42,338 nt of DNA from a virus. Shown one piece after another: positions 1,365-39,335 of the stretch. Within the stretch, counting starts at the first letter, position 1; every line of letters starts with the position of its first letter. The position numbers and the translations under genes are program-made. The stretch spans positions 1-42,338 of the IMG/VR virus record IMGVR_UViG_3300042876_001176; one strand, 5' to 3'. The notes under the pieces are model-generated. The model had not been told where the DNA came from. It made no database searches and worked only from the letters and a program-made list of their open reading frames with translations.

Positions 1365-4300
1365 CTACTGCCTAAACCCAAACACCAGCGCCATCGGGTT
1401 TTCGGTTTTCCCATCATTCAATGCTTCGGCCCCGCTAATGGTCCGATTCACCTGAGCGGACGGCAAGCTGGTTAGGTCGCCGAGGACATTGATAGCGGCT
1501 TTCCGAAACGCCTCGTCGAATTCGCCTTGATACGCCTGGCTGCCCAGCTTGCCAATATCGGTAATAAACCGCAGTCCGGCTGGGCCTTGATAGTCCCGGC
1601 CCATGTCATTGGCACCGGTCACGGTTTTAACTGCGTCGGAAAACTCCCGTACGATCACCATCAAGCCCATTAGGTAATCGATCTGCTGGGCCAGCAATTT
1701 CTTGCTCAGTTCGTCCCAGTCGTCATCGCCGCCGCCGTCAGCTGTCAACGCTTCTTTCAGGAAAAAACCCAACACCGGCGGTGCCGAATACAACATCAGG
1801 TAATCCACGGCCAGTTTGGCTTTTTTCTTTTCAGTCATGGTTTGCGCCACGCCCAGGTTAAAAGCCGTATTCATAAAGCTATAAAACACAGTAAAAAGCT
1901 TCATGAGTTTGTCGCGCTCCATAGCCGATAAGTCTTTAGTCTGCCCGCCGCCCTGTGCATCAATTACCGCCTGATCGGCCAAGGCAATCGCCCTTTCCTC
2001 TTCATTCAAATCGGCGATCGCTTTGTCATAAGCGCCCAACCAGGTCGGCACGTCGACCAGCTGCTGGGCTTTCATCATCATCAAGAAGGTGCCGGATCGG
2101 ATCGCGGCCCGCGCCGGCGTTTCATCCTGCACTCGGTTTCGTAATTCGTTCAGCTCCCGGAACCGGGTGCGGGACCGGTTACGCATGAATTCCGACTTGT
2201 CGTTTACTTCTCGCAATGCTCCTTTCGGATCGCCGATAAAACGGAATATGCCTCGACCTATCCACGGCGCGCCCACCCGCACAATCGATTGCGTAAGCCC
2301 CAAAACCTGCATGGCGGCCGACATAGCATTAAAACCCAGGCCGGCGGCGCTGATGCCTTGCCGTAATTTGCCCAGGGCGATCTCGCCGGCATTGGTCGCC
2401 GCCTGGTCGCCGCCGGCAATATCCTGCTCCCAGCTTTTAAACTGTCGCACCACTTCCGGCCCGTAATGGCCGCGAATCGCTTGGTCGATGGAATGCGACT
2501 TCATCAGCTTATTCATATCGATCAGCCATTCGTGCCAGGCTAAATCGTGAATCACTTCATTGATGCCGGCATACACGCCGGACAGCGAATACAGCAAGGG
2601 CCGGCCCAGGATGGCTTCTTCCCGGTTCTTGGTGAAGCTGCGGCGGGTCGTGGCCGAGCTGTAAGCTCCTTGCATCTGCCGTTTGGCCTCTTCGGCGCTG
2701 GCATGTTGTTCGGCGCGCTGGCTGGCGAGAGGATCGTATTTGATCGGGTAATAGCCGCCCGTCAACCGCAACTCAACAGGCTCTCCGGCGGCGGTTTTGG
2801 TTTGCACGATCACCGGCTTGGGTTCCACCCAATTCGGTTCCTTGCCATAGACGCGGCGTTCCTTGGCGCCGATTTCCGGCCGGTAGCTGTCGAAATAGTC
2901 CCAGATGCGTTGTACGGCTTGCCACTCTTCGGCCGTCAAGGTTTGCAGCACCGGTGTGATTTGCTCGATGCTCCAGCCTTCACCGCCTAAAAGCCGCTGC
3001 AAGTTGCCATCGTTGCCGGTATTCAGCGCCATAGCTAGGCGCATTTCTCGGTTAAGGCTGCGGCCGATGCTAGGGAAAAATTGACCTTTGCCGCCCATCT
3101 TGCCCATCTTGAATATCGGGTTGAGAATGGTCGTCAGCTTTTCGGTGGCGTCGGCGCGGCGAGTGGCTTCATATTCGCCGCGATCGTTGGCGCTACGGAT
3201 GAAATACTCCCACACCGAACCGCCGTCTTGACCACCGTCCAAAATCCGCGCCCAGGTCGACGCCTTGATGTGCGACGCATAAAACCCTTTTAAAAATTGC
3301 CAGGTGCGGCCAGCGTTGGTGGTCGGTGTCCGGGTATCGGCAATGCGGGTGCCGGCATGCTGAATGATGCTGCCGACGATCTCTTGTTTCACTTCCTCGA
3401 AGTTGCGGTTTTTCTTGGCAGTCAACAGCGTATTTTTCAGCCGGCCCAGGTGCTCGATCTGCTTGATGGTATCGACCAGGCCGCGAAACTCTTCGACCGT
3501 CATGTCCTTATAGGAAATCTTGCCGGCCTCGTTCAACAGCTCCAGCGGAATATCCGGTTCATAACCTTGTTCCCGTTGCGACTCCGCCCATTGCGACAAC
3601 GATTTGCGTTTATCCAGAACCTTATTGGTAGTCTTGCGCAAATCGAAGCGCTCCAGTTCCCGATAAATCTGGTCCTTATATTCCGGATCGATCTTGTTAT
3701 TGTCGGCTTCCAGCTTTCGGAAATAGCGTAAACCGGCCTCGACGTCGTCTTGTGCTTGATAAGCGGCACGGGTGGCCTGCACGTTGATGATCTGATTGCG
3801 CTTTTCGGCGGCGGCAATATCCAGCTTGCCGGCTTTCTCGGCAGCGGCGGCGGCCTTGGCGGCCCGCACTTCCGCTCGGGCAAATTGCGCCGGCGAAATA
3901 TCCCGCACTTTAACCCTGGCAACCATGGCTTCGGCAAATTCCTTGGCCGCACTACCCAATAGCCGCAGGGAACCGGTGGCCTTGGCCAGCGCATTGGCTT
4001 CGGTGGTGATAAACCGCGCCCGCACTTCGTTATGAATCGCCAAATCCGCTGCGCGCTGAATCGCGTCGGGCGTCGATAAATCGCCGTAGTTTTGCAACAT
4101 GCGTTCGTCAGTCAGGCGCTCGATCTCATCTTTCGGCGTGGGCGAATCTGCCAGTTTCTTGACCAGCTCATCGCCGGATGAAAAGCCGAACAGTTCCGCG
4201 ATGATGTCCGGATGCAAGCCATCCTTGGCAGTCATTTTCAAGTCGACCAGGCGATTGACCACCGCGTCGGGAATATCGAACAGCGATTTCAGCGCGGCGT

Positions 4301-7300
4301 ATTCGATGCGGCCGGCATTCAATCCGGAGGGATTAATCACCTGTTCGCCGGCTTTGCCTTCCTCGGTGAATATATTGGCACCAAAGCCTAGCGAATACTG
4401 CGCCTGGCCTCGTAATTCCGCGTCGAATTTATCCTCGAATTCGCGGAAATCGTATTTACCGTTGGCGTCTGGTGTCAGATAGCCTTCATCGAGCAGCTTT
4501 TCCGCCATCGCCTCGATCGACAAGCCGCCTTCCTTGCGTACCAAAGGCTTGCCGAAAACCGGTACCGGCGAACGACCAGGCTGATCCCAGTTCCACTCGC
4601 TTTCCAGTTGTTGCCTATCCAAGCCCCCGAGTTTCGCGATGGCGGTAAATAGCGAATCTTGTGTACCATCGACTTTACCAGGATCTGAACCAGACTTTTT
4701 ATCGGTGGCCAGCTTATCGTCAGCGCTGATCTTGCCGGTTAAAAACTTCCAGGCGCGATAGACAGGCTGTTTCAAAACCTCCATCCGCACTTCCGCCCTA
4801 ACCTCTCGCCGCAACTCATCATGCTGGCGTTGTAGTTTTTTCAACTCCCGGTTGCGGGCGTTCTGCAGCCACTGCATATCCCGCAAGCCTTTCAGCGCCA
4901 ACTGTTCCATCGCCGTGCTGGTGGCTTCCTGGCCGGCGGCTTGATAGGCGGCGTATTCCTCGGTCGTCATGCCGGATTGCGCCTGATCGGCGAACAGCGG
5001 CATCATCGACCGCGCCTGCTGGGCTAGTTTGATTTCCTCGTCGGTGGCCAACATCCGGTCAAACACCTGGCGCACTTCGTCGGTCAGTTCGATGTCCTTG
5101 AAGTGGTCGCGGACATGCTCATACACTTTTTTCATCCACTGCCGGAAACTGGCAAAGATGCGGGCCAGTGGTAAGCTGGGTGCGTTGCCTTCAAACAGGT
5201 ATTTCTCAAAACCCTCGGCAAACTGCTCGTGATAGCTGCGCTTTTGCTCAAAGTCCAGGTTGTACCATTCCTCGATAGATTCCAGTCCAAACCATTTCAG
5301 CAAGGCGTCGGTATCATCGAGCAGCTGCTTTTGCGCGGCCGTGGTGCCGACCAGGTCGTTTTCCGCACGCAGATTGGCGGCCAGATCGAACTGCATTTCT
5401 AAAAAGAAATGGCCGGATTCATGCAGGAAGGTGGACAGGTCTGCTTTGTCCAGCAGTGTGATGGTGCGGGTGGCGGGATTAAACGCGCCCCGGTTGCTAT
5501 CGGTGCCCTGATTGAAAGTATCGCGGCTAAATGACAAGCCCACGTCGGCCCGCGAATCAAACGCTTCGCCGTTCTTGTCCAGCACGTCCAGCACCCGCAC
5601 CTGGTTGCTGTTGAAGAATCCGGCCAGGTTCATCACCGCGTTGCTGGTCATGTCGCCCTGATTGACGATGATCGCGGCGGCGGCATTCGCCATCGATAAG
5701 CCGCGGTGGAGGGCATCCATACGGCCATCGGTGCGCAAGGTTTCGGATTGCTCGGATTTAAGCGGGATAAAAGCCACCGGCGCATGCTGGTTGTCCATCA
5801 GCATCACCCCGGATTCGCCCTTGGACAACGTTTTTGCAGTGCTTTTGGCGACATTGGGCGCGCTAACCGGATCGGCCAGTTTGCCTTCCTCGGCATAAAC
5901 CCGTTCGACGACGGGTACGGTTTTAGTTTTATCGGGCTGAGTGGTCGTGCCTTTCTGGTCAGTGCCGCCCTGCTCGCCGGATTCGTAAACCCACTGCCTG
6001 CCATTGCCTTCCGCGCCGGCAATGGCAAAGATACCGCGCGGCGTAATCTCGCTACCGCGAAACACTTCTGCAAGCTTTTTGTTCATGGCCCGGTCGGCGG
6101 CGCTCAGTTCGTTGATGCCGCTCGGGTGATTGTGGGCAAACCAGATATTGGCAGCGCCATTGATGCGGAAGGCTTCGCCGGCGATGGTGGCGGGGTAAAC
6201 GGAGGCTTGATCGATAGCGCCCTTGAAAGCACCGACTATCGCCAAAGGTTTGCCGTCTTTGTCGGTGATCAGCGCATCAAAGCGCTCGACCGTGCTTTTG
6301 GATAAATAGGCTAAGGCTTGGGCGGCTTGTTCCGGCGTGCTGACGAGATCGGCACCAAGTTGTCGGGTATTTTCTTCGACGATCTGGGTTCGGGTACCGT
6401 AGGTGCCGGTTGGGGCGTCGTCGCGCGATAAACCGCCTCCGGTATCTGTGCCGGTGCTATCAGCTTTTCCGGCCTCGGCTGGTACGTCAAATAGGTCAAG
6501 GGTGTAGTCATCGCGTTTTGAACTCCGGCGTTGAAACAGAATGGTATCAGGATTATTATCCTCGGTGGCGATGGTGGAGCGAGTTGTGTCACCTTCACTA
6601 GCAATGCCGTTAGTGTCTGTCCTCGTAACGGCGTCGCCCTGATTATTCTTCTCGGTTTGGCTGAGCGTATTTCCGCCAGCCGATTGACTCGCTACATTGA
6701 CCGGATACAGGCTAAATAATTCCTCCGGCGTCTTTCCAAATTTATCGGCCTGCACCGCATAAAAGTTAGACAGCAAGGCCGCATAGTGATCGTTCACCTT
6801 ATCAGTAAACCGCGACACGCCGGCCAGCTGCTGCTTAATGGTGTCCTTCACGGCCAAGATGGATGCCTGAAAGCTTTCATCGGTCTGCTTATGGGTCAAA
6901 ACCCGCGCAACTTCGGCCTGTAGTTCCTCGGCGTGGTTATCCATATATTGCTTGGCGCCGGCGCGGCTGAACTCTTCGCCCTCGATGCGGATATGGTCGA
7001 CCAAGGGCTGGGCATATTCGGTCGCGGCAATCTTGCTCACGTAATCGCTCATCGCAATCTTGATCTCGCCGCCGGTCGCTAAAGCGGTCGGCAGCTGCTG
7101 GGCCACGTCCGGCAAACTAGCCGCGATTTGTTCGGCAACACCGGACTGGGCAAAGCTCTGAGCATCGATATAGACATTTTGTGCATGGCTATTCGCCAGC
7201 GCCTCATCGATGAAGCTTTGCATCGCGGCCGGATCGCGCTGCAAAACTTTACTGGCAGCAGCAATCTGGTTGATTTGCTCGATGTGCGCGGCTTGTTGGT

Positions 7301-8570
7301 CGGCCTGCTGTGCCAGGCTAAACTGCTCATGAATCCGCTTGCCGGAAACGACCATCACCTCGCTAGGCGTGCCGAATAATTCCCCAAAGGCTTCGGCCAG
7401 AATATTGCCGGGTTGAATATCCTGCCCGGCCACGATCTCGCCGCCCGCCTCGCCCGCTGCGCCTAAACCGGCTTGAATGGGTAGCTGCAGGGCGATATTC
7501 GCCATTTCCTGTGCCAGTGGCCGGTTGACCAGCTTTCCGGCCACGGATTGCGGCAAAACCGCCTTGCTGGCGATGCCGCCGGATATGGCGTCGAATAATC
7601 CCACCACGCCAGCATGCTTGGCCGCTTGCTCGGTAATCTTCGCCAATGTCTGCGGGTTTTGCAGGGCTTCGGTAATGGCGTTAGGATCGGTGACGTCGAC
7701 GCCGGCGTTTTGCAGGTTGCCGACCAGTTCGCCGGCATAGTCCACCAAAGTAGAATTAGCGCCTATGGTGCCGGCTGCTCCGGCTGGGCCGGCATAGAGG
7801 CTGGCGGGAATGGCGGCCAATAAACCGGGCATGGATTGGATCAGGGATTCCGGGCCGATAGCCTCGATAAATTTCAACGGGTCTTTGGATACTTCGCCAA
7901 ATGCTGTGGAAAAATCAGGGGCGCGCATAACATTGCCGACCACGCTGGGCGCTGGAATGGCATTGCGCTCCACTTGCAAGCCGGCCAGATCGGCCGCCGA
8001 TTTCCCAATCCGCTGTTGAATCTTCGGCTGATAAAAATCCCGAAACTGCTGGCGTTCCTCCGGCGTTTTTAGCCTGGCATAACTTTCCCCCAGCACACCC
8101 AATCTATCGCCAAACAGCTTGGGTATATCCGGCTCGCCTGTAGCAATCGCCTGATCGATTTTGTCTAACTGATCAAGTCCCGCCGACTGGTTAAATACCT
8201 GCAAGGCATGCGGCAAGGATTCCAGGGCCGGCACACCGCGCTTAAACGAATTCAGCAGGGTTTCAAGGTGCCCCAGGTTATCGATGTCATCATGAGCGAT
8301 CGCGGCTTTCTTGGGATCTGACAACAAGTTTCCCGTGGCCGGCAACGATTTGGCCAAGGTGTCGTAATCCACGGCATCCAGTTTAGCCCGGCGCTCGACG
8401 GTGCCGGTATCCAGGCGCACCGCTTCGACCGGCAAGTCATACTGCTTGGCCAAGCCTTGCAGCCTGGCTTCGGTATCCGGTTGTTTGTCGACGGCAGTTT
8501 GCAGGGATTGGCGGATATTGTCGGCGCTGTCCTGTTGGATCAGGCCAAGGTAGGGATTGGATTCGTCCAT
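1365..8570 (-). CDS. Giant polyvalent ejection (internal virion) protein with JAB and HExxH domains
   Basis: A 2401-aa protein, the largest in the window, downstream of two other internal virion proteins. Hydrophobic stretches lie near residues 245-290 and 2250-2275. Around residues 735-850 there is a RadC/JAB-like (MPN+) domain with HNHPSG (H813, H815), the usual zinc ligands of that metalloenzyme family. A second zinc-protease motif, HESGH (H1050-H1054), lies in the next segment. Residues about 1200-1750 are charged and helical, and about 1800-1990 resembles regions shared by large phage polyvalent proteins such as DarB. By position and size it should be packaged and injected with the DNA, as T7 gp16 is. 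Peptidase and host-protection roles are inferred from the motifs only. Confidence 0.85.
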   Translation of the reverse strand: MDESNPYLGLIQQDSADNIRQSLQTAVDKQPDTEARLQGLAKQYDLPVEAVRLDTGTVERRAKLDAVDYDTLAKSLPATGNLLSDPKKAAIAHDDIDNLGHLETLLNSFKRGVPALESLPHALQVFNQSAGLDQLDKIDQAIATGEPDIPKLFGDRLGVLGESYARLKTPEERQQFRDFYQPKIQQRIGKSAADLAGLQVERNAIPAPSVVGNVMRAPDFSTAFGEVSKDPLKFIEAIGPESLIQSMPGLLAAIPASLYAGPAGAAGTIGANSTLVDYAGELVGNLQNAGVDVTDPNAITEALQNPQTLAKITEQAAKHAGVVGLFDAISGGIASKAVLPQSVAGKLVNRPLAQEMANIALQLPIQAGLGAAGEAGGEIVAGQDIQPGNILAEAFGELFGTPSEVMVVSGKRIHEQFSLAQQADQQAAHIEQINQIAAASKVLQRDPAAMQSFIDEALANSHAQNVYIDAQSFAQSGVAEQIAASLPDVAQQLPTALATGGEIKIAMSDYVSKIAATEYAQPLVDHIRIEGEEFSRAGAKQYMDNHAEELQAEVARVLTHKQTDESFQASILAVKDTIKQQLAGVSRFTDKVNDHYAALLSNFYAVQADKFGKTPEELFSLYPVNVASQSAGGNTLSQTEKNNQGDAVTRTDTNGIASEGDTTRSTIATEDNNPDTILFQRRSSKRDDYTLDLFDVPAEAGKADSTGTDTGGGLSRDDAPTGTYGTRTQIVEENTRQLGADLVSTPEQAAQALAYLSKSTVERFDALITDKDGKPLAIVGAFKGAIDQASVYPATIAGEAFRINGAANIWFAHNHPSGINELSAADRAMNKKLAEVFRGSEITPRGIFAIAGAEGNGRQWVYESGEQGGTDQKGTTTQPDKTKTVPVVERVYAEEGKLADPVSAPNVAKSTAKTLSKGESGVMLMDNQHAPVAFIPLKSEQSETLRTDGRMDALHRGLSMANAAAAIIVNQGDMTSNAVMNLAGFFNSNQVRVLDVLDKNGEAFDSRADVGLSFSRDTFNQGTDSNRGAFNPATRTITLLDKADLSTFLHESGHFFLEMQFDLAANLRAENDLVGTTAAQKQLLDDTDALLKWFGLESIEEWYNLDFEQKRSYHEQFAEGFEKYLFEGNAPSLPLARIFASFRQWMKKVYEHVRDHFKDIELTDEVRQVFDRMLATDEEIKLAQQARSMMPLFADQAQSGMTTEEYAAYQAAGQEATSTAMEQLALKGLRDMQWLQNARNRELKKLQRQHDELRREVRAEVRMEVLKQPVYRAWKFLTGKISADDKLATDKKSGSDPGKVDGTQDSLFTAIAKLGGLDRQQLESEWNWDQPGRSPVPVFGKPLVRKEGGLSIEAMAEKLLDEGYLTPDANGKYDFREFEDKFDAELRGQAQYSLGFGANIFTEEGKAGEQVINPSGLNAGRIEYAALKSLFDIPDAVVNRLVDLKMTAKDGLHPDIIAELFGFSSGDELVKKLADSPTPKDEIERLTDERMLQNYGDLSTPDAIQRAADLAIHNEVRARFITTEANALAKATGSLRLLGSAAKEFAEAMVARVKVRDISPAQFARAEVRAAKAAAAAEKAGKLDIAAAEKRNQIINVQATRAAYQAQDDVEAGLRYFRKLEADNNKIDPEYKDQIYRELERFDLRKTTNKVLDKRKSLSQWAESQREQGYEPDIPLELLNEAGKISYKDMTVEEFRGLVDTIKQIEHLGRLKNTLLTAKKNRNFEEVKQEIVGSIIQHAGTRIADTRTPTTNAGRTWQFLKGFYASHIKASTWARILDGGQDGGSVWEYFIRSANDRGEYEATRRADATEKLTTILNPIFKMGKMGGKGQFFPSIGRSLNREMRLAMALNTGNDGNLQRLLGGEGWSIEQITPVLQTLTAEEWQAVQRIWDYFDSYRPEIGAKERRVYGKEPNWVEPKPVIVQTKTAAGEPVELRLTGGYYPIKYDPLASQRAEQHASAEEAKRQMQGAYSSATTRRSFTKNREEAILGRPLLYSLSGVYAGINEVIHDLAWHEWLIDMNKLMKSHSIDQAIRGHYGPEVVRQFKSWEQDIAGGDQAATNAGEIALGKLRQGISAAGLGFNAMSAAMQVLGLTQSIVRVGAPWIGRGIFRFIGDPKGALREVNDKSEFMRNRSRTRFRELNELRNRVQDETPARAAIRSGTFLMMMKAQQLVDVPTWLGAYDKAIADLNEEERAIALADQAVIDAQGGGQTKDLSAMERDKLMKLFTVFYSFMNTAFNLGVAQTMTEKKKAKLAVDYLMLYSAPPVLGFFLKEALTADGGGDDDWDELSKKLLAQQIDYLMGLMVIVREFSDAVKTVTGANDMGRDYQGPAGLRFITDIGKLGSQAYQGEFDEAFRKAAINVLGDLTSLPSAQVNRTISGAEALNDGKTENPMALVFGFRQ

Positions 8571-27088: not shown

Positions 27089-28567
27089 TTAACGGGGAGA
27101 ACGTGCAAAAGGATCATGGCCGCGAATAGCCTGATCGCGCGGCCTATTGGTAAAACCGCCGCGTAGTTTTTTGTTAACCGGAAAGGCGAAAGACAAGCAC
27201 AGCGCATCGGCCTTATTCGGCGATGGCAGCCCTCTGGCTTTCATGTCTTTCTTGCTTTCCAGCTGAATCTTGCCGTCCATGCGCGGCACGGTTTCCGGCG
27301 AGATTAGTTCGTCGTACAGCTCGGGATCATCGGGAATGCAGCCGCCAGATTTCAGCCAGTCGCGCATCAGCTTCCACATTTCCGCCCGCTTATTCAGGCA
27401 GCCCGGATCGGATGATTCACCGGCAAACCACACTAACGTCCAGTCTCGGCCCATAGTCGAACCGGCGGACTTGATGCCAGTGCCATAACCGGCATCGATA
27501 AACACCGCGTCGGCATCGTGTTCGTCTTCCAGGTTGGCGATGATGTTCGCCACCTGAATATCGTTGTCATTCTTGGCGAGTTTGCGCAGAATCTGAAAGT
27601 GCAAGCCTTGCCGTAAACCGATGATTAGCGGGTCGTCGCCTTCCCAAGCCGGGTCGACGGTGATGATCTTCGGCGCAAAATTGAATTGCTCGATGCGAAT
27701 ATCACGGCCCAAGGCCTTATCGGCATCATCGGTAGCAATGAACTGTTTCGCCGAGACATTGGGGAACATCCCGCGCACCCTAACTTTGAAAAAGTCGCTA
27801 TCGACGCCGTGGTCCTCTTGCCATTTAGCAATCTGGGCCTTGTTTGTGCCTTCAACTGTCCGGGAATCTATCTGCCGATTAACCCAGCGGTGCCGATGTT
27901 TACGAAAACACTCCCTAAACTCGCCGGTATTCCGTGTCGGGTTACCGAACGTGATCCATATAATTTCAGTGTCCTCGTCAGACAGCGCGCCTTCGGTCAC
28001 TTTCCAAACCGCATCATCGATCGCCGATGCTTCGTCATAGATGATGACGATGCGCTTGCCCTGGTTATGCAAACCGGCGAAAGCTTCGGTATTGTTCTTC
28101 GACCAGGTCACAAAGTTGGCCCGCCATTCGCGGGTATGGTCTTTGTCCCGGCTGGCGATGCTGGTGGCTTGCACATCAAACCAGTCTGCCGTGATCGACA
28201 TCCGCGACCATTTTCCAACCTCGGGCGAAGTCTTGGTTTTCAGCTGGCTATCGGTATTGGCGGTGATGACCACCTTGCAATCTTCGCAAGTGGACAGCGC
28301 CCAGTTCACAAGCATCCCCAGTTCGGCAGACTTGCCGATACCGTGGCCGGATGCCACCGAGATTTTCAGCGGCTCAAACCGTGTCTCCGGGTTTTGCAGA
28401 TGGTCCCGGATGATGCAATTGATGTCGGTCTGCCACTCGCGTGGACCTTTGTGGCCTTTCAGCGGGCCGTGGTCCCAGTCCCAGGCCAGCAGGCTCCATT
28501 TGTGCGGATCGGTGCTACACTCGGCAGCCAGTTCAATCAGCTGGTCGGCTGCCTTATCCGCCGACAC
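27089..28567 (-). CDS. terL: Terminase large subunit
   Basis: A 492-aa DNA-packaging motor. ATPase motifs: Walker A GHGIGKS (residues 74-80) and Walker B VIIYDEA (D178, E179). The RNase H-like nuclease half has the acidic residues D305 (TVDPAW), D358 (VFIDAG) and an Asp in NKADAL near 460. The Walker A form with GIGKS is the one seen in BPP-1-like and related podovirus terminases. The start overlaps the end of the small subunit by 14 bases. Confidence 0.93.
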   Translation of the reverse strand: MSADKAADQLIELAAECSTDPHKWSLLAWDWDHGPLKGHKGPREWQTDINCIIRDHLQNPETRFEPLKISVASGHGIGKSAELGMLVNWALSTCEDCKVVITANTDSQLKTKTSPEVGKWSRMSITADWFDVQATSIASRDKDHTREWRANFVTWSKNNTEAFAGLHNQGKRIVIIYDEASAIDDAVWKVTEGALSDEDTEIIWITFGNPTRNTGEFRECFRKHRHRWVNRQIDSRTVEGTNKAQIAKWQEDHGVDSDFFKVRVRGMFPNVSAKQFIATDDADKALGRDIRIEQFNFAPKIITVDPAWEGDDPLIIGLRQGLHFQILRKLAKNDNDIQVANIIANLEDEHDADAVFIDAGYGTGIKSAGSTMGRDWTLVWFAGESSDPGCLNKRAEMWKLMRDWLKSGGCIPDDPELYDELISPETVPRMDGKIQLESKKDMKARGLPSPNKADALCLSFAFPVNKKLRGGFTNRPRDQAIRGHDPFARSPR

Positions 28568-29111
28568 GCAATCTAGCTCTCTCCAACCGGTCGGCCAAGT
28601 TGTCGGTCACGTCCAGGGTGACCTTGTCGTTCAGCATGCCCAAGTGGCGGGCCGCCAAGGTTTGAGCATCAGTTTTATTCCAGAATTTAATTTCGCTGGT
28701 ATGCCCAACAAAATTGCCGTCGTCGTCGCGCAGTTCTGTGGTTTTAATGCTGGAAATGGAAAACGCGATTTCATCCGGCCATTGCGAAGGCGGCAATAAT
28801 CGATCGTTGGCATCGTAGGCTTTGCGTGGGTCGGCAAAAGCGATATAGCCTACGTGTCGTAGCACGTTATCTTGACGGACTTGTAAACGCTCTTCCCGTT
28901 CTCCGCGAAGTAATTCGAGAATCCGCTTGATTTCAGGTTTTTTCATCATACGACTAGCGGCTTGGCTAGCGGTTTTCTCAGAATATCCAGCAGTGATGGC
29001 CGCTTTAGAGGCAATAGGCGTTAGCAGCATGTTCTGAGCGAATAGCCATTCCTTTTCTGGAACCATGCTACGTAATTCTTCCAGAGTAGTTTCAGGAGTA
29101 AGAATATTCAT
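28554..29111 (-). CDS. terS: Terminase small subunit
   Basis: A 185-aa DNA-recognition protein. An N-terminal helix-turn-helix region (LTPIASKAAITAGYSEKTASQAASRMMKK, residues about 30-58) is followed by a helical domain with VLRHVGYIAFADPRKAYD and a C-terminal tail that should contact TerL; this is the Terminase_2 pattern. ATG 29111 is preferred to TTG 29120, but no good ribosome site precedes it. Three TTGTTAA-type repeats lie immediately upstream. Confidence 0.85.
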   Translation of the reverse strand: MNILTPETTLEELRSMVPEKEWLFAQNMLLTPIASKAAITAGYSEKTASQAASRMMKKPEIKRILELLRGEREERLQVRQDNVLRHVGYIAFADPRKAYDANDRLLPPSQWPDEIAFSISSIKTTELRDDDGNFVGHTSEIKFWNKTDAQTLAARHLGMLNDKVTLDVTDNLADRLERARLRVGG

Positions 29112-29144
29112 ACTTAACAAAAATACTTAACAAAAGTTAACAAG
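29112..29144. repeat. Three tandem CTTAACAAA-type repeats before terS
   Basis: On the plus strand ACTTAACAAAA (29112), ACTTAACAAAA (29125) and AGTTAACAAG (29135) follow each other at 13 and about 10 bases. They end at the terS start codon. Likely uses are packaging-site recognition by TerS, operator control of the late genes, or an AT-rich promoter (TTGTTA boxes on the minus strand). I cannot choose among these. Confidence 0.45.
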
Positions 29145-30052: not shown

Positions 30053-30106
30053 AACACCTCTCCAAATTACAAAAAACGCCTTGCCTGACATCGTTGGCGG
30101 CAAAAT

Positions 30107-30358
30107 CCGTCCCAGACTTTACTGGGACAAGTCCACTGGGACGGCTGCAAGCCTTTATTTCTCTAGTCTTGTCCCAGTCCCAGTAAAAACAGTTAAAAAA
30201 AATAAATAGTAATATTCGGTAAACACACGTCGCGCAGGCGCGCGCGTACGCGCGTGTACATGTGCGCGCCTGCGATAAAACTGGGACACTGGGACAAGCC
30301 GCGCCAGCCGTGGTCTGTAGCCGTCCCAGTGGACTTGTCCCAGTAAAGTCTGGGACGG
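30107..30358. repeat. 252-bp nested palindrome with ten CTGGGAC sites, candidate replication origin
   Basis: Two perfect 40-base inverted arms (30107-30146 and 30319-30358) flank a 172-base centre. Inside lies a second pair, CTTGTCCCAGTCCCAGT (30168-30184) against the 19 bases at 30280-30298, with the same centre of symmetry. The heptamer CTGGGAC or its complement occurs ten times, five in each direction. The stretch 30184-30224 is about 85 percent A+T. Iterated sites, dyad symmetry and an AT-rich tract next to a primase-helicase gene suggest an origin. A MITE is an alternative, but no target duplication is seen at the edges. Confidence 0.7.
30233..30274. repeat. GC-rich inverted repeat inside the origin-like block
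   Basis: CGCAGGCGCGC (30233-30243) and its exact complement GCGCGCCTGCG (30264-30274) flank a 20-base centre of alternating purine-pyrimidine bases (GCG, TACG, CGTGTACATGT). The centre could adopt unusual DNA structure. It lies directly beside the AT-rich tract. Confidence 0.6.
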
Positions 30359-30582: not shown

Positions 30583-33093
30583 TCAATCCTTGTCCGGATC
30601 GGAAAAGATGTCCTTGCGAATCCGATCGGCTGGAGGTCTGACATAACCCCAACGTCTGAACTGCCCGCTCGGCTCCCGTACCCGTTCCCAGCCGATCTTC
30701 TGCATGATCCGCCCAACCCGCGATGTCATGCGGTTAGCTTCATCGATCTTCGATTTCTCAACCTTGCAGGCGTTGATCAGTAGATCCAGCGCCGTGTAGA
30801 AATTATGCAGCTTCTCGGACGGATCGTTCACATAGTTCTGAATCAACTCTTCCCAAGCATCGACGGACAAGCGGCTGGACTGCTCAGGCTCGAAATACAG
30901 CGCCTCTTCCTCAATCGTTGGCCAAAACCGTTCCCCGGCGTTAAACGCCACAATCGCCTCGGCAAACAGCTGTTCACGAATCTCTTTCAGTAACTCGGTA
31001 TCAACCTCGGCGCACCGTACCGGCCATATCCGCCGGTTACCGGTCTGGTCTTTCAAATACTGGTCCAGGTTAGTCGTACCGCCAAATACACAAACACGAG
31101 GCGCTTCGACCGGGCGGCGGTCATACGGCCGACGAAACTTATCCCTGGCAATGGCCAGGAACGACTTAAACGCCGTATCCTCGGAACGGCTAAACATCCC
31201 CATCTCGGCCATCTCCTGCAGCCACACGCCTTGAATGGCCATGTTGCCTTCGTTGGTGCCAATGTCGAACGGTGTCTCGCTAAACCAAGGGTCGGCCAGG
31301 ATCCGGAAGAAGGATGACTTCCCCTGCCCCTGCTTGCCTTCCAGGACCAGCATGTAGTCAAACTTGCAGCCCGGCCGGAAAATCCGCGCAACCATGGCGA
31401 TCAGGAAAAACCGCCCAGCCAGGCGCAGAAATGGGGTGTTCTCGGCTTGGGTAATATCGGCCAGGTAGCAATCCAGGCGCTTGGTGCCGTCCCACGGCGC
31501 CAAGCTGGTCAGAAACTGCCTAACCGGATGAAACTTGTTAGCGTTGGCCGCATGCGCCACCCCTTCGGCAATGGTCGACATGGCCTTGATCAGCACGTCG
31601 ACATCGTCGGCCAGCCATTCATCAAGGCAGGAATCGTCGGCGCCGTCCCAAACGCCCGGCTCGGTAGTCCACGGCGTCGGCAAAAGCCGCTCGATCTGAT
31701 GTGCAAATTCGTTATAGCCAATCACCCCGCGCCAACGCGGGTGCATCCGCAAAATCTTGGCCACGTTCGATCGGCACGGCTCAATCCCGCCGCGGGCTTT
31801 CTTGGCCAAGGCGTGATACCAGGCGCTATCGGGATTCGGTGATTCGTCCGGGTATTCTGGATAGTCAGGCGGCTCCGGGTAATCCGGCGGAAAATCATCG
31901 GAACCCCCGCCGCCAGCGCAAGGGGGCACAGGGGTAGAAGGCAGTTTGGTAGCGGATTCGCCATAGGCGGCGCCTATAAACGGCTTCGACTTGGCCCGAA
32001 CATAATTCGCCAGGTCTTCGCCTGTCATGCCGCCCTCGATGGCGTCGGCCACATCCCAGCCGTTCTTCATGCTGCCCACCGGCGGGATCTCCATCACCCA
32101 CACCTTGCAGCCCAATTCAACCAGCTTCTCGGCAATCTTACGGGCGGCAACCAGGCCAGGCTGTTTGTCCTCGGGCAAATAGGGAGGGATAAAATCGGCC
32201 GGCGCGCTCTTATGCTTTTTCTCGCGCTGGCTATCGCAATCCGGCCAGATAATCACCCGGCGGCCGGCCAGCGGCGTCCAATCGGTCTTATCGACCGCCT
32301 TGGAGCCGCCCGACCAGGTCAGGCAAGCCAGTTCAGTCAGGTCGATATCGGCCGCATCGGCGCACTTCTCGCCCTCCACCAACAGCACCGGGGCAAAATG
32401 TTCCGGGTCGTCGACGTCGGCAACGGTCAACCGCTCCAGTCCGTACAACGGCCTCGGTACCGCCCACTGCATCCAGCGCCATTCATGCCTTCCGGTTTTC
32501 TCATGCCGGCACCAGGTTAGCGGCAAAACCTCCTTGCCGCCGTCGCTGGTCTTGAATCGATACACATAGCCCAACACCTCGCCATCCAGGCCGCGATAGG
32601 TCCAAACAGTTTCGGGCAAACCTCGCACGGAATGTGCTTTGTGCCGTTCCGGCGCGTCGGCCGGTACCGGAATGATCGGGTGCCAGAGAGAATCGTTGGA
32701 AGGTTTTTTGTCCGGCTCGGCAGGTTTATCCCCCTGCCGAGGCTGACGGTTATAAGGCGCCTTCGCCTTCTTCTCTCGGGGTGTATTGGGTACCTCAATG
32801 CCCAGCAGCTCGCCCAACTCTTTAGCCGCCGCGCCCTGGTCGTCATTGCAAAACAGATAGGCATACAACGAGATCGGATCGGACCCCGAGTCATCGGTCG
32901 CAAAATCCTGCCAAACCCCTTTGCGGATATTGATCGAGAACGACCCCATCTTGCTGTCGCCACGGGTGGGATTCAGCGCCCGGTATTCGGACCCGCTCTT
33001 CTCGCCATCGGGCAGCCATTCGCCAAGCAGCGACTCAAACTGTCCCAGGGCCGCGGCATTGATCGCGGCGAAGTTGATTTTTTTGGCTGCCAT
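30583..33093 (-). CDS. Replicative primase-helicase (TOPRIM plus VirE-type ATPase)
   Basis: An 836-aa protein. The N-terminus (DSKMGSFSINIRKGVWQDFA) resembles the DNA-binding region of phage primases. A TOPRIM domain follows, with VLLVEGEKCADAA near residue 240 and RRVIIWPDCDS near 283. A Pro/Asp/Glu-rich linker lies near 400-430. The helicase half has VLEGKQGQGKSSFF (Walker A, near 583) and VWLQEMAEM (Walker B, near 624), as in VirE/P4-alpha-like SF3-type ATPases. The tail looks like a winged helix and may bind origin repeats. The origin-like block lies downstream of its stop. Confidence 0.87.
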   Translation of the reverse strand: MAAKKINFAAINAAALGQFESLLGEWLPDGEKSGSEYRALNPTRGDSKMGSFSINIRKGVWQDFATDDSGSDPISLYAYLFCNDDQGAAAKELGELLGIEVPNTPREKKAKAPYNRQPRQGDKPAEPDKKPSNDSLWHPIIPVPADAPERHKAHSVRGLPETVWTYRGLDGEVLGYVYRFKTSDGGKEVLPLTWCRHEKTGRHEWRWMQWAVPRPLYGLERLTVADVDDPEHFAPVLLVEGEKCADAADIDLTELACLTWSGGSKAVDKTDWTPLAGRRVIIWPDCDSQREKKHKSAPADFIPPYLPEDKQPGLVAARKIAEKLVELGCKVWVMEIPPVGSMKNGWDVADAIEGGMTGEDLANYVRAKSKPFIGAAYGESATKLPSTPVPPCAGGGGSDDFPPDYPEPPDYPEYPDESPNPDSAWYHALAKKARGGIEPCRSNVAKILRMHPRWRGVIGYNEFAHQIERLLPTPWTTEPGVWDGADDSCLDEWLADDVDVLIKAMSTIAEGVAHAANANKFHPVRQFLTSLAPWDGTKRLDCYLADITQAENTPFLRLAGRFFLIAMVARIFRPGCKFDYMLVLEGKQGQGKSSFFRILADPWFSETPFDIGTNEGNMAIQGVWLQEMAEMGMFSRSEDTAFKSFLAIARDKFRRPYDRRPVEAPRVCVFGGTTNLDQYLKDQTGNRRIWPVRCAEVDTELLKEIREQLFAEAIVAFNAGERFWPTIEEEALYFEPEQSSRLSVDAWEELIQNYVNDPSEKLHNFYTALDLLINACKVEKSKIDEANRMTSRVGRIMQKIGWERVREPSGQFRRWGYVRPPADRIRKDIFSDPDKD

Positions 33094-38414: not shown

Positions 38415-39335
38415 GTGTGGTTTAAAAATTTAGCGGTTTACAAGTTTTCTCAAGAAATGGTCTTGCATCCGCATTCGATGAACGAAGCGCTCATGAAAAA
38501 GCCATTTACACCCTGCCAGACACAGGAAGAATTTAGTTTCGGCTGGGTGCCCCCGGTCGGCGAACAATCGGATGTATTGGTTCATGGAAACTTTCCGTAC
38601 CTGGTGATTTGCGGCAAAAAAGAAGAAAAGATTCTGCCAGGCGCGGCAATTACGGAACAGCTTGTCAAACGGGTCACGGACATTGAAGAGCGCGAGGCTC
38701 GAAAACTACCCCATAAAGAGAAGCTGAGATTGCGGGATGAAGTGATATTCGAACTATTGCCCCGGGCCTTAACCCAGTCCGCCAAAACCTTCGCCTACAT
38801 CGACCCGACAAATGGCTATCTGATCGTCGATGCCGCATCATCCAAGAAAGCCGAAGACTTATTGAGCCAATTGCGCAAATGCTTGGGCTCGCTGCCGGTA
38901 GTGCCGCTGCAAGTTATAGCCAACCCCACTGCCACCATGACCAGCTGGCTACACGACCATAACTTGCCTGATCAATTCCGGATCGAAGACGAATGCGAGC
39001 TGCGATCGCCGGAGAAAGAAGGCGGTGTGATTCGCTGCAAGCATCACGACCTGGCGTTGCCGGAAATTAAAAACCATCTGGACAGCGGCAAATCGGTGCA
39101 CAAACTATCGTTGAGCTGGAGCGATAAAATCAGCTTCACCCTAGATGCCAATCTGGCCATCAAACGCCTCAAGTTTTTAGACCTGATTCAAGAGGCGGCG
39201 GCAAATACCGAAGCCGTAGATCAGATCGAGCAATTCAACAACGACTTTTACATCATGGCCGGTGAAATTGCCAGCATGCTGACCAGTTTGATTGATGCCT
39301 TCGGCGGCCAGATCGACAAGGCAGAGACATCATGA
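38415..39335 (+). CDS. rdgC: RdgC-like recombination-associated protein
   Basis: A 306-aa protein with the RdgC opening MWFKNLAVYKF (GTG start), ALMKKPFTPCQTQEEFSFGW, KILPGAAITEQL, and the C-terminal half TSWL ... EDECELRSPEKEGGVIRCKH ... KLSLSWSDKISFTLDANLAIKRLKFLDL. RdgC forms a ring dimer around double-stranded DNA and restrains RecA. In phages it may control recombination or host response. It is typical of beta- and gammaproteobacteria. Length matches the usual 300 or so residues. Confidence 0.92.
   Translation: MWFKNLAVYKFSQEMVLHPHSMNEALMKKPFTPCQTQEEFSFGWVPPVGEQSDVLVHGNFPYLVICGKKEEKILPGAAITEQLVKRVTDIEEREARKLPHKEKLRLRDEVIFELLPRALTQSAKTFAYIDPTNGYLIVDAASSKKAEDLLSQLRKCLGSLPVVPLQVIANPTATMTSWLHDHNLPDQFRIEDECELRSPEKEGGVIRCKHHDLALPEIKNHLDSGKSVHKLSLSWSDKISFTLDANLAIKRLKFLDLIQEAAANTEAVDQIEQFNNDFYIMAGEIASMLTSLIDAFGGQIDKAETS

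Follow-up and report, generated by a model that had tools for sequence, protein, structure and literature searches.

Positions 30107–30358 of the window hold a nested palindrome with ten copies of the heptamer CTGGGAC, and this element is very probably the replication origin of a phage, read by the Rep protein that is encoded beside it. (This estimate comes from sequence comparison and is for the origin itself; it excludes the Z-DNA step that we discuss below.) By the window, we mean the whole stretch of DNA that we analyzed, which is all 42,338 nucleotides of the IMG/VR virus record IMGVR_UViG_3300042876_001176. The record contains phage head, tail, terminase, repressor-like, and integrase genes, and it is therefore from a temperate phage. 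It also encodes a full-length homologue of RdgC (38415–39335) and a 2401-amino-acid protein (1365–8570) that matches phrog_9880 over almost its entire length.

A preliminary description of this DNA had proposed an iteron-based origin with dyad symmetry. The comparative support for that proposal is strong: relatives share the layout after rep, and the letters of the iterons covary with Rep.

The nested palindrome and the adjacent rep gene

The element and its neighbors have the following features (the strand is given where there is one).

28554–29120: terminase small subunit (TerS)
30107–30358: whole nested palindrome, the putative origin (inverted arms and iterons)
30107–30149: outer inverted arm distal to rep, 43 nt, 98% complementary to 30316–30358
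30109–30115, − strand: iteron CTGGGAC, outer block
30122–30128, + strand: iteron CTGGGAC, middle block
30136–30142, + strand: iteron CTGGGAC, middle block
30143–30170: spacer of fixed length (28 bp) between the middle and inner blocks, with a GGCTGCAAGCC-type box (from the spacing in relatives and the enrichment of the box)
30171–30177, − strand: iteron CTGGGAC, inner block, overlapping the next iteron by 1 bp
30177–30183, − strand: iteron CTGGGAC, inner block
30184–30228: A+T-rich tract (80% A+T), candidate DNA unwinding element
30238–30269: perfect alternating purine-pyrimidine tract, 32 bp, Z-DNA-prone
30281–30287, + strand: iteron CTGGGAC, inner block
30289–30295, + strand: iteron CTGGGAC, inner block
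30296–30322: spacer of fixed length (27 bp), mirror of 30143–30170 (from the spacing in relatives)
30316–30358: outer inverted arm proximal to rep, pairs with 30107–30149
30323–30329, − strand: iteron CTGGGAC, middle block
30337–30343, − strand: iteron CTGGGAC, middle block
30350–30356, + strand: iteron CTGGGAC, outer block
30583–33093, − strand: rep, primase-helicase initiator, 836 amino acids (Pfam PF05272, PHROG primase/helicase, AlphaFold model, match to 7pds)
30586–30873, − strand: C-terminal winged-helix domain of Rep (residues 741–836), putative iteron reader
30649–30651, − strand: wing residue W815 of Rep

Along the + strand, the order is thus one iteron (−), two iterons (+ +), the 28-bp spacer, (− −), the A+T tract, the alternating tract, (+ +), the 27-bp spacer, (− −), and (+). 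The arms are 43 nt long with one mismatch, so the perfect 40 bp that had been reported for them is right; in 500 shuffles of the region, no inverted repeat was longer than 21 bp. We also confirmed that there are five heptamers per strand (ten within 30109–30356) and that an inner inverted pair shares the same center: the heptamer pairs at 30171–30183 and 30281–30295 are centered within 1 bp of the center of the arms. The interior stretch that had been put at about 85 percent A+T is 80% A+T overall (30184–30228), and its first 30 bp are at about 87%. The primase-helicase is indeed the neighbor, and the gap that had been given as 530 bases is about 480 bp with a TTG start at 30103 (and longer with a later start). 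The alternating tract was not in the preliminary description. It lies to the right of the center of the palindrome, within a GC-rich and partly self-complementary region (30233–30274, 82% inverted).

Across the window, CTGGGAC occurs 18 times (versus 3.1 expected), and outside of the element there are never more than two copies per 252 bp. One tandem pair, at 28472–28484 within the putative large terminase ORF, has the same 6-bp spacing as the inner pair of the origin, and is probably a chance occurrence. Over 40 bp, the two arms in the window do not differ at all, whereas those of close relatives have diverged, which suggests recent homogenization between the inverted arms. GC skew near the element is weak and is confounded by gene direction, and we did not find a clean switch in skew at the element. 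Searches with the element gave no match among phage records (blastn) or in Rfam.

We modeled Rep with AlphaFold2 (82 sequences, pLDDT of 89). The model has a DnaG-like zinc-binding domain (1d0q), a DnaG-type primase, a helicase core of the VapE/PriRep type, and a C-terminal winged helix. Its top structural match, with the next match far lower, is PriRep1 with double-stranded DNA (7pds), which aligns to residues 422–827 (Z = 33.1 over 396 residues, VIA-align), and the sequence profile of Rep matches 7pds with E = 7e-88. The helicase core of Rep is homologous to that of PriRep1, a self-loading initiator helicase from a SaPI. The winged helix (residues 746–818) is confidently modeled and is inside the 7pds alignment, as a match of fold only. 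There is also a distant similarity between the helicase domain and papillomavirus E1 (2v9p, Z = 10.6).

Conservation of the layout and covariation of iterons with Rep

Searches of viral and bacterial genome contigs yielded about 160 loci with relatives of Rep, among them prophage loci in Nitrosomonas, Methylovorus, and Herbaspirillum. There were 98 usable full-length Reps, and 85 loci remained after we dropped those that were over 90% identical or had short downstream sequences. The preliminary description had suggested a search for the heptamer cluster in related prophages, and the same anatomy, with other iteron letters, does follow the same gene in about 60 non-redundant relatives (Reps under 90% identity). 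In 66 loci, a single 7-mer occurs at least five times within 450 bp after rep, while shuffles that preserve composition top out at 2 to 5. The inner iterons beside the core face (−|+) in 59 of these 66 loci, and the commonest block pattern, which is also the window's, is −+−|+−+ (outer, middle, inner, core, and mirror). The start-to-start spacing from middle to inner iterons is 33–40 bp in 100 of 103 measured cases, counting both sides, and the core is 58–103 bp long, aside from one outlier in which the inner iterons were mis-assigned (L096).

The spacer has a signal of its own. A box of the RAxSCCK type (R-A-x-S-C-C-K) is found in 57% of spacer segments, as compared to 5% in shuffles, and in many relatives it has a fixed place between the middle and inner iterons. 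Since the box is kept while the iterons change, it may be a second recognition site or a priming site. One relative (L008) has a DnaA-box-like sequence (TTGTGGATAA / TTATCCACAA) arranged symmetrically beside both outer iterons (at ~4770–5060, just after rep).

The pattern has limits, as Rep relatives at about 33–36% identity (L150–L170) are mostly without a clear array or tract right after rep by these measures. Among more distant plasmids and phages with VapE-type Reps, most have iterons and most are without a long alternating core. The iterons come straight after rep in plasmids pGO128 and pKNA06 and in Staphylococcus and Paenibacillus phages. In both the 4.3-kb pGO128 (L180, 2685–3202) and pKNA06 (L181, 3175–3800), iterons directly downstream of the gene for a VapE-type Rep are found with no alternating core.

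The iteron letters are largely uniform inside each phage and differ between phages: besides CTGGGAC, we found CTGTGAC, AGTGGGAC, GTTGGAC, GTTAGAC, GTAGGAC, GTATGGAA, GTGTGGAA, GTTAGGAA, GTTGGGAA, and, as a further variant, GGTATGGAA. On a tree of Rep that was built without the C-terminal domain, the iteron classes require 25 changes, as compared to 39.5 if labels are shuffled (0 of 200 shuffles were as low). Of the domains of Rep, the C-terminal one is on average the most strongly associated with the iteron letters. Within the GGAA-tailed subfamily, the best single predictor among all 836 positions is residue 815, which distinguishes GTATGG loci from GTTAGG/GTTGGG loci in 26 of 27 cases (tyrosine is found in 8 of 9 GTTAGG/GTTGGG loci and in 0 of 18 GTATGG loci), with the proviso that this association is post hoc and came from scanning. 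In four independent pairs on the tree, about 3.7 agree on average and none disagree, and four pairs cannot reach significance (p = 0.125). The association points to the winged helix of Rep as the reader of the iterons.

The alternating purine-pyrimidine core

Within 450 bp after rep, the longest alternating run has a median length of 21.5 bp and reaches 59 bp; the corresponding medians are 9 upstream of rep, 8.5 inside rep, and 9 in shuffles. At 57 of 84 loci, a run as long as the observed one turned up in no more than 1 of 200 dinucleotide shuffles. There are 67 alternating runs of at least 16 bp in the 38 kb after rep and 20 in the other 1.06 Mb of these loci, an enrichment of about 90-fold at the origins, and 71% of the steps in the core alternate (50% in shuffles). 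The tracts of different relatives have no single recognizable sequence in common.

The tracts are 67% GC and are dominated by CG/GC and CA/TG steps (the pyrimidine-purine steps are 401 CG, 222 CA, 135 TG, and 101 TA). CG and CA/TG steps are the cheapest to convert to Z-DNA (Table 1 of PMC3024258). We compared Z-DNA formation to melting with a simplified equilibrium competition model, in which the Z energies are from PMC3024258, and the melting parameters and the form are our own simplification. In this model, the probability that the window's tract is in the Z form is 0.46 at a superhelical density of -0.020 and 0.999 at -0.025, and melting occurs near -0.05 and not earlier. Across relatives, Z-DNA prevails in the origin at 69 of 81 loci in this model. 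A functional Z-DNA element at the tract is a plausible hypothesis.

The part of the core that is richest in A+T is on the side away from rep in 46 of 57 loci, and the window follows this pattern. In 18 of 57 relatives, no 20-bp stretch of the core is at 60% A+T or more; in other words, about a third of cores are without an obvious AT-rich unwinding element. The alternating tract is not indispensable: two closely related methanotroph-type loci (L014 and L097, with Reps that are 57–58% identical by tblastn) have T-tracts in its place, and another locus (L149) has a non-alternating palindrome. Since the tract can be replaced, a physical role (for example, helping the DNA to open or storing stress) is favored over strict sequence recognition.

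We tentatively suggest, as something that may well turn out otherwise, that a supercoil-driven tract of left-handed Z-DNA does part of the work of initiation throughout this group of phage origins, and that in about one-third of members it apparently replaces the AT-rich unwinding element. The B-Z switch or its junctions would store or release torsional energy as hexamers assemble on the mirrored iterons. It is also possible, if somewhat doubtful, that the element is an origin whose tract acts as a hinge that flexes or bends easily, or as a region for wrapping, and not as Z-DNA. Alternation maximizes pyrimidine-purine steps, and two facing arrays about 90 bp apart might loop together. However, TA is taken to be the most flexible step, and in these GC-rich tracts it is the rarest of the pyrimidine-purine steps.

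The preliminary description had raised a cruciform as an alternative, and it is unlikely that the GC-rich core of the origin extrudes one (or a hairpin). The window's core is partly self-complementary (82%), and the palindrome in L149 is where the tract would be, but the hairpin energies of 59 tracts do not depart from those of alternation-preserving shuffles (mean z of -0.12). This implies that the alternation is conserved, and not a palindrome or self-complementarity.

Probable origin function and comparison with known systems

If the element is an origin, then Rep would bind the CTGGGAC iterons via its C-terminal winged helix, and the two mirrored half-origins (each with outer, middle, and inner iterons and a fixed spacer of 27–28 bp) would load two facing Rep hexamers. 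The core of about 97 bp between the hexamers would be melted, and the two helicases would run outward, so that forks leave in both directions. More speculatively, the alternating tract might store torsional stress under negative supercoiling or make flexible B-Z junctions, and Z-DNA formation there might ease opening when Rep binds.

We consider it very unlikely that the element is instead a regulatory array, such as an operator, that serves a phage transcription factor. It is intergenic with multiple dyad sites, and genes for a GerE/LuxR-type regulator and a CI-like repressor are close by. However, the array follows rep in relatives, its letters track the C-terminal domain of Rep itself, a long melting or Z-prone core amid head-to-head arrays is not operator-like, and plasmids with a VapE-type Rep and few other genes retain the array. 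A DNA packaging site (pac or cos) read by the terminase small subunit is more improbable still. The gene for TerS is about 1 kb from the element and is close to it in the window's clade, but homologues of the window's TerS or TerL were found in just 6 of 85 loci, all from that clade (divergent terminases would escape this search), and the architecture is common to about 60 relatives; we rejected packaging as a general explanation on these counts. A MITE had also been raised, and the long and perfect inverted repeats at the ends would fit a MITE or other mobile palindrome. This reading is excluded for the present record, which has a single copy of the element. It is extremely improbable overall, as many lineages have the element in the same place behind the same gene, with a sequence that turns over and a layout that is conserved.

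That iterons lie downstream of a PriRep/VapE initiator is already known. In the open-access literature (most subscription journals are outside of this scope, so priority is not established), we found nothing relevant to Z-DNA in phage origins by title and abstract, nor did we find the six-block mirrored layout with a Z-prone and often AT-poor core in a large group of phages. The paper on the VarioGold phage says nothing of an origin. About 60 origins that share a layout and differ in their iterons, with corresponding changes in Rep, are a ready dataset for the recognition code of self-loading Rep helicases. Clear evolutionary constraint on Z-DNA-forming potential is rare, and the conserved alternating core would be an example of it at a defined and testable site in bacterial viruses; the old question of whether Z-DNA has a role in replication can be tested directly there. 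The core also calls into question the rule that an obvious AT-rich unwinding element is required at an origin.

The origins of iteron plasmids such as RK2, P1, and R6K combine repeats with an AT-rich unwinding element, for which the window has a candidate. Those origins load the host's DnaB and have direct repeats, whereas the window's initiator is itself a helicase and its arrays are mirrored. The alpha protein of phage P4 is like the window's Rep in that a primase, a helicase, and a C-terminal iteron-binding winged helix are in one protein, but its helicase family and its ori/crr layout are different. SV40 T-antigen and papillomavirus E1 form two head-to-head hexamers, and we know of no comparable Z-prone core in their origins. 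These initiator helicases, which recognize their own origins and have been compared with SaPI Rep, have an N-terminal origin-binding domain (PMC7581432); in contrast, the putative origin-binding domain of the window's Rep is C-terminal.

The closest parallels are the SaPI and SCCmec initiators (PriRep1, SaPI5 Rep, and Cch2). In SaPIs, the iterons lie just downstream of rep and are recognized by the C-terminal domain of Rep, apparently in the form of two hexamers; Cch2 of SCCmec binds the equivalent site with its own C-terminal domain (PMC7581432). The window shares the short iterons directly downstream of an initiator-helicase gene, and its Rep has a homologous helicase and C-terminal domain (7pds, Z = 33.1). 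In the SaPI class, iteron arrays flank an A+T-rich melting region; those of the window flank an A+T-rich tract (30184–30228), and in 18 of 57 relatives no 20-bp stretch of the core is at 60% A+T or more. On the other hand, the window's Rep has an N-terminal primase of the DnaG/TOPRIM type, while SaPIbov1 and SaPI5 have AEP primases (PMC7581432). Unlike the SaPI and SCCmec origins, those of the window's group have a strict six-block nested dyad with a fixed spacer and a GC-rich alternating purine-pyrimidine core, and their hosts are mostly Betaproteobacteria and methylotrophs.
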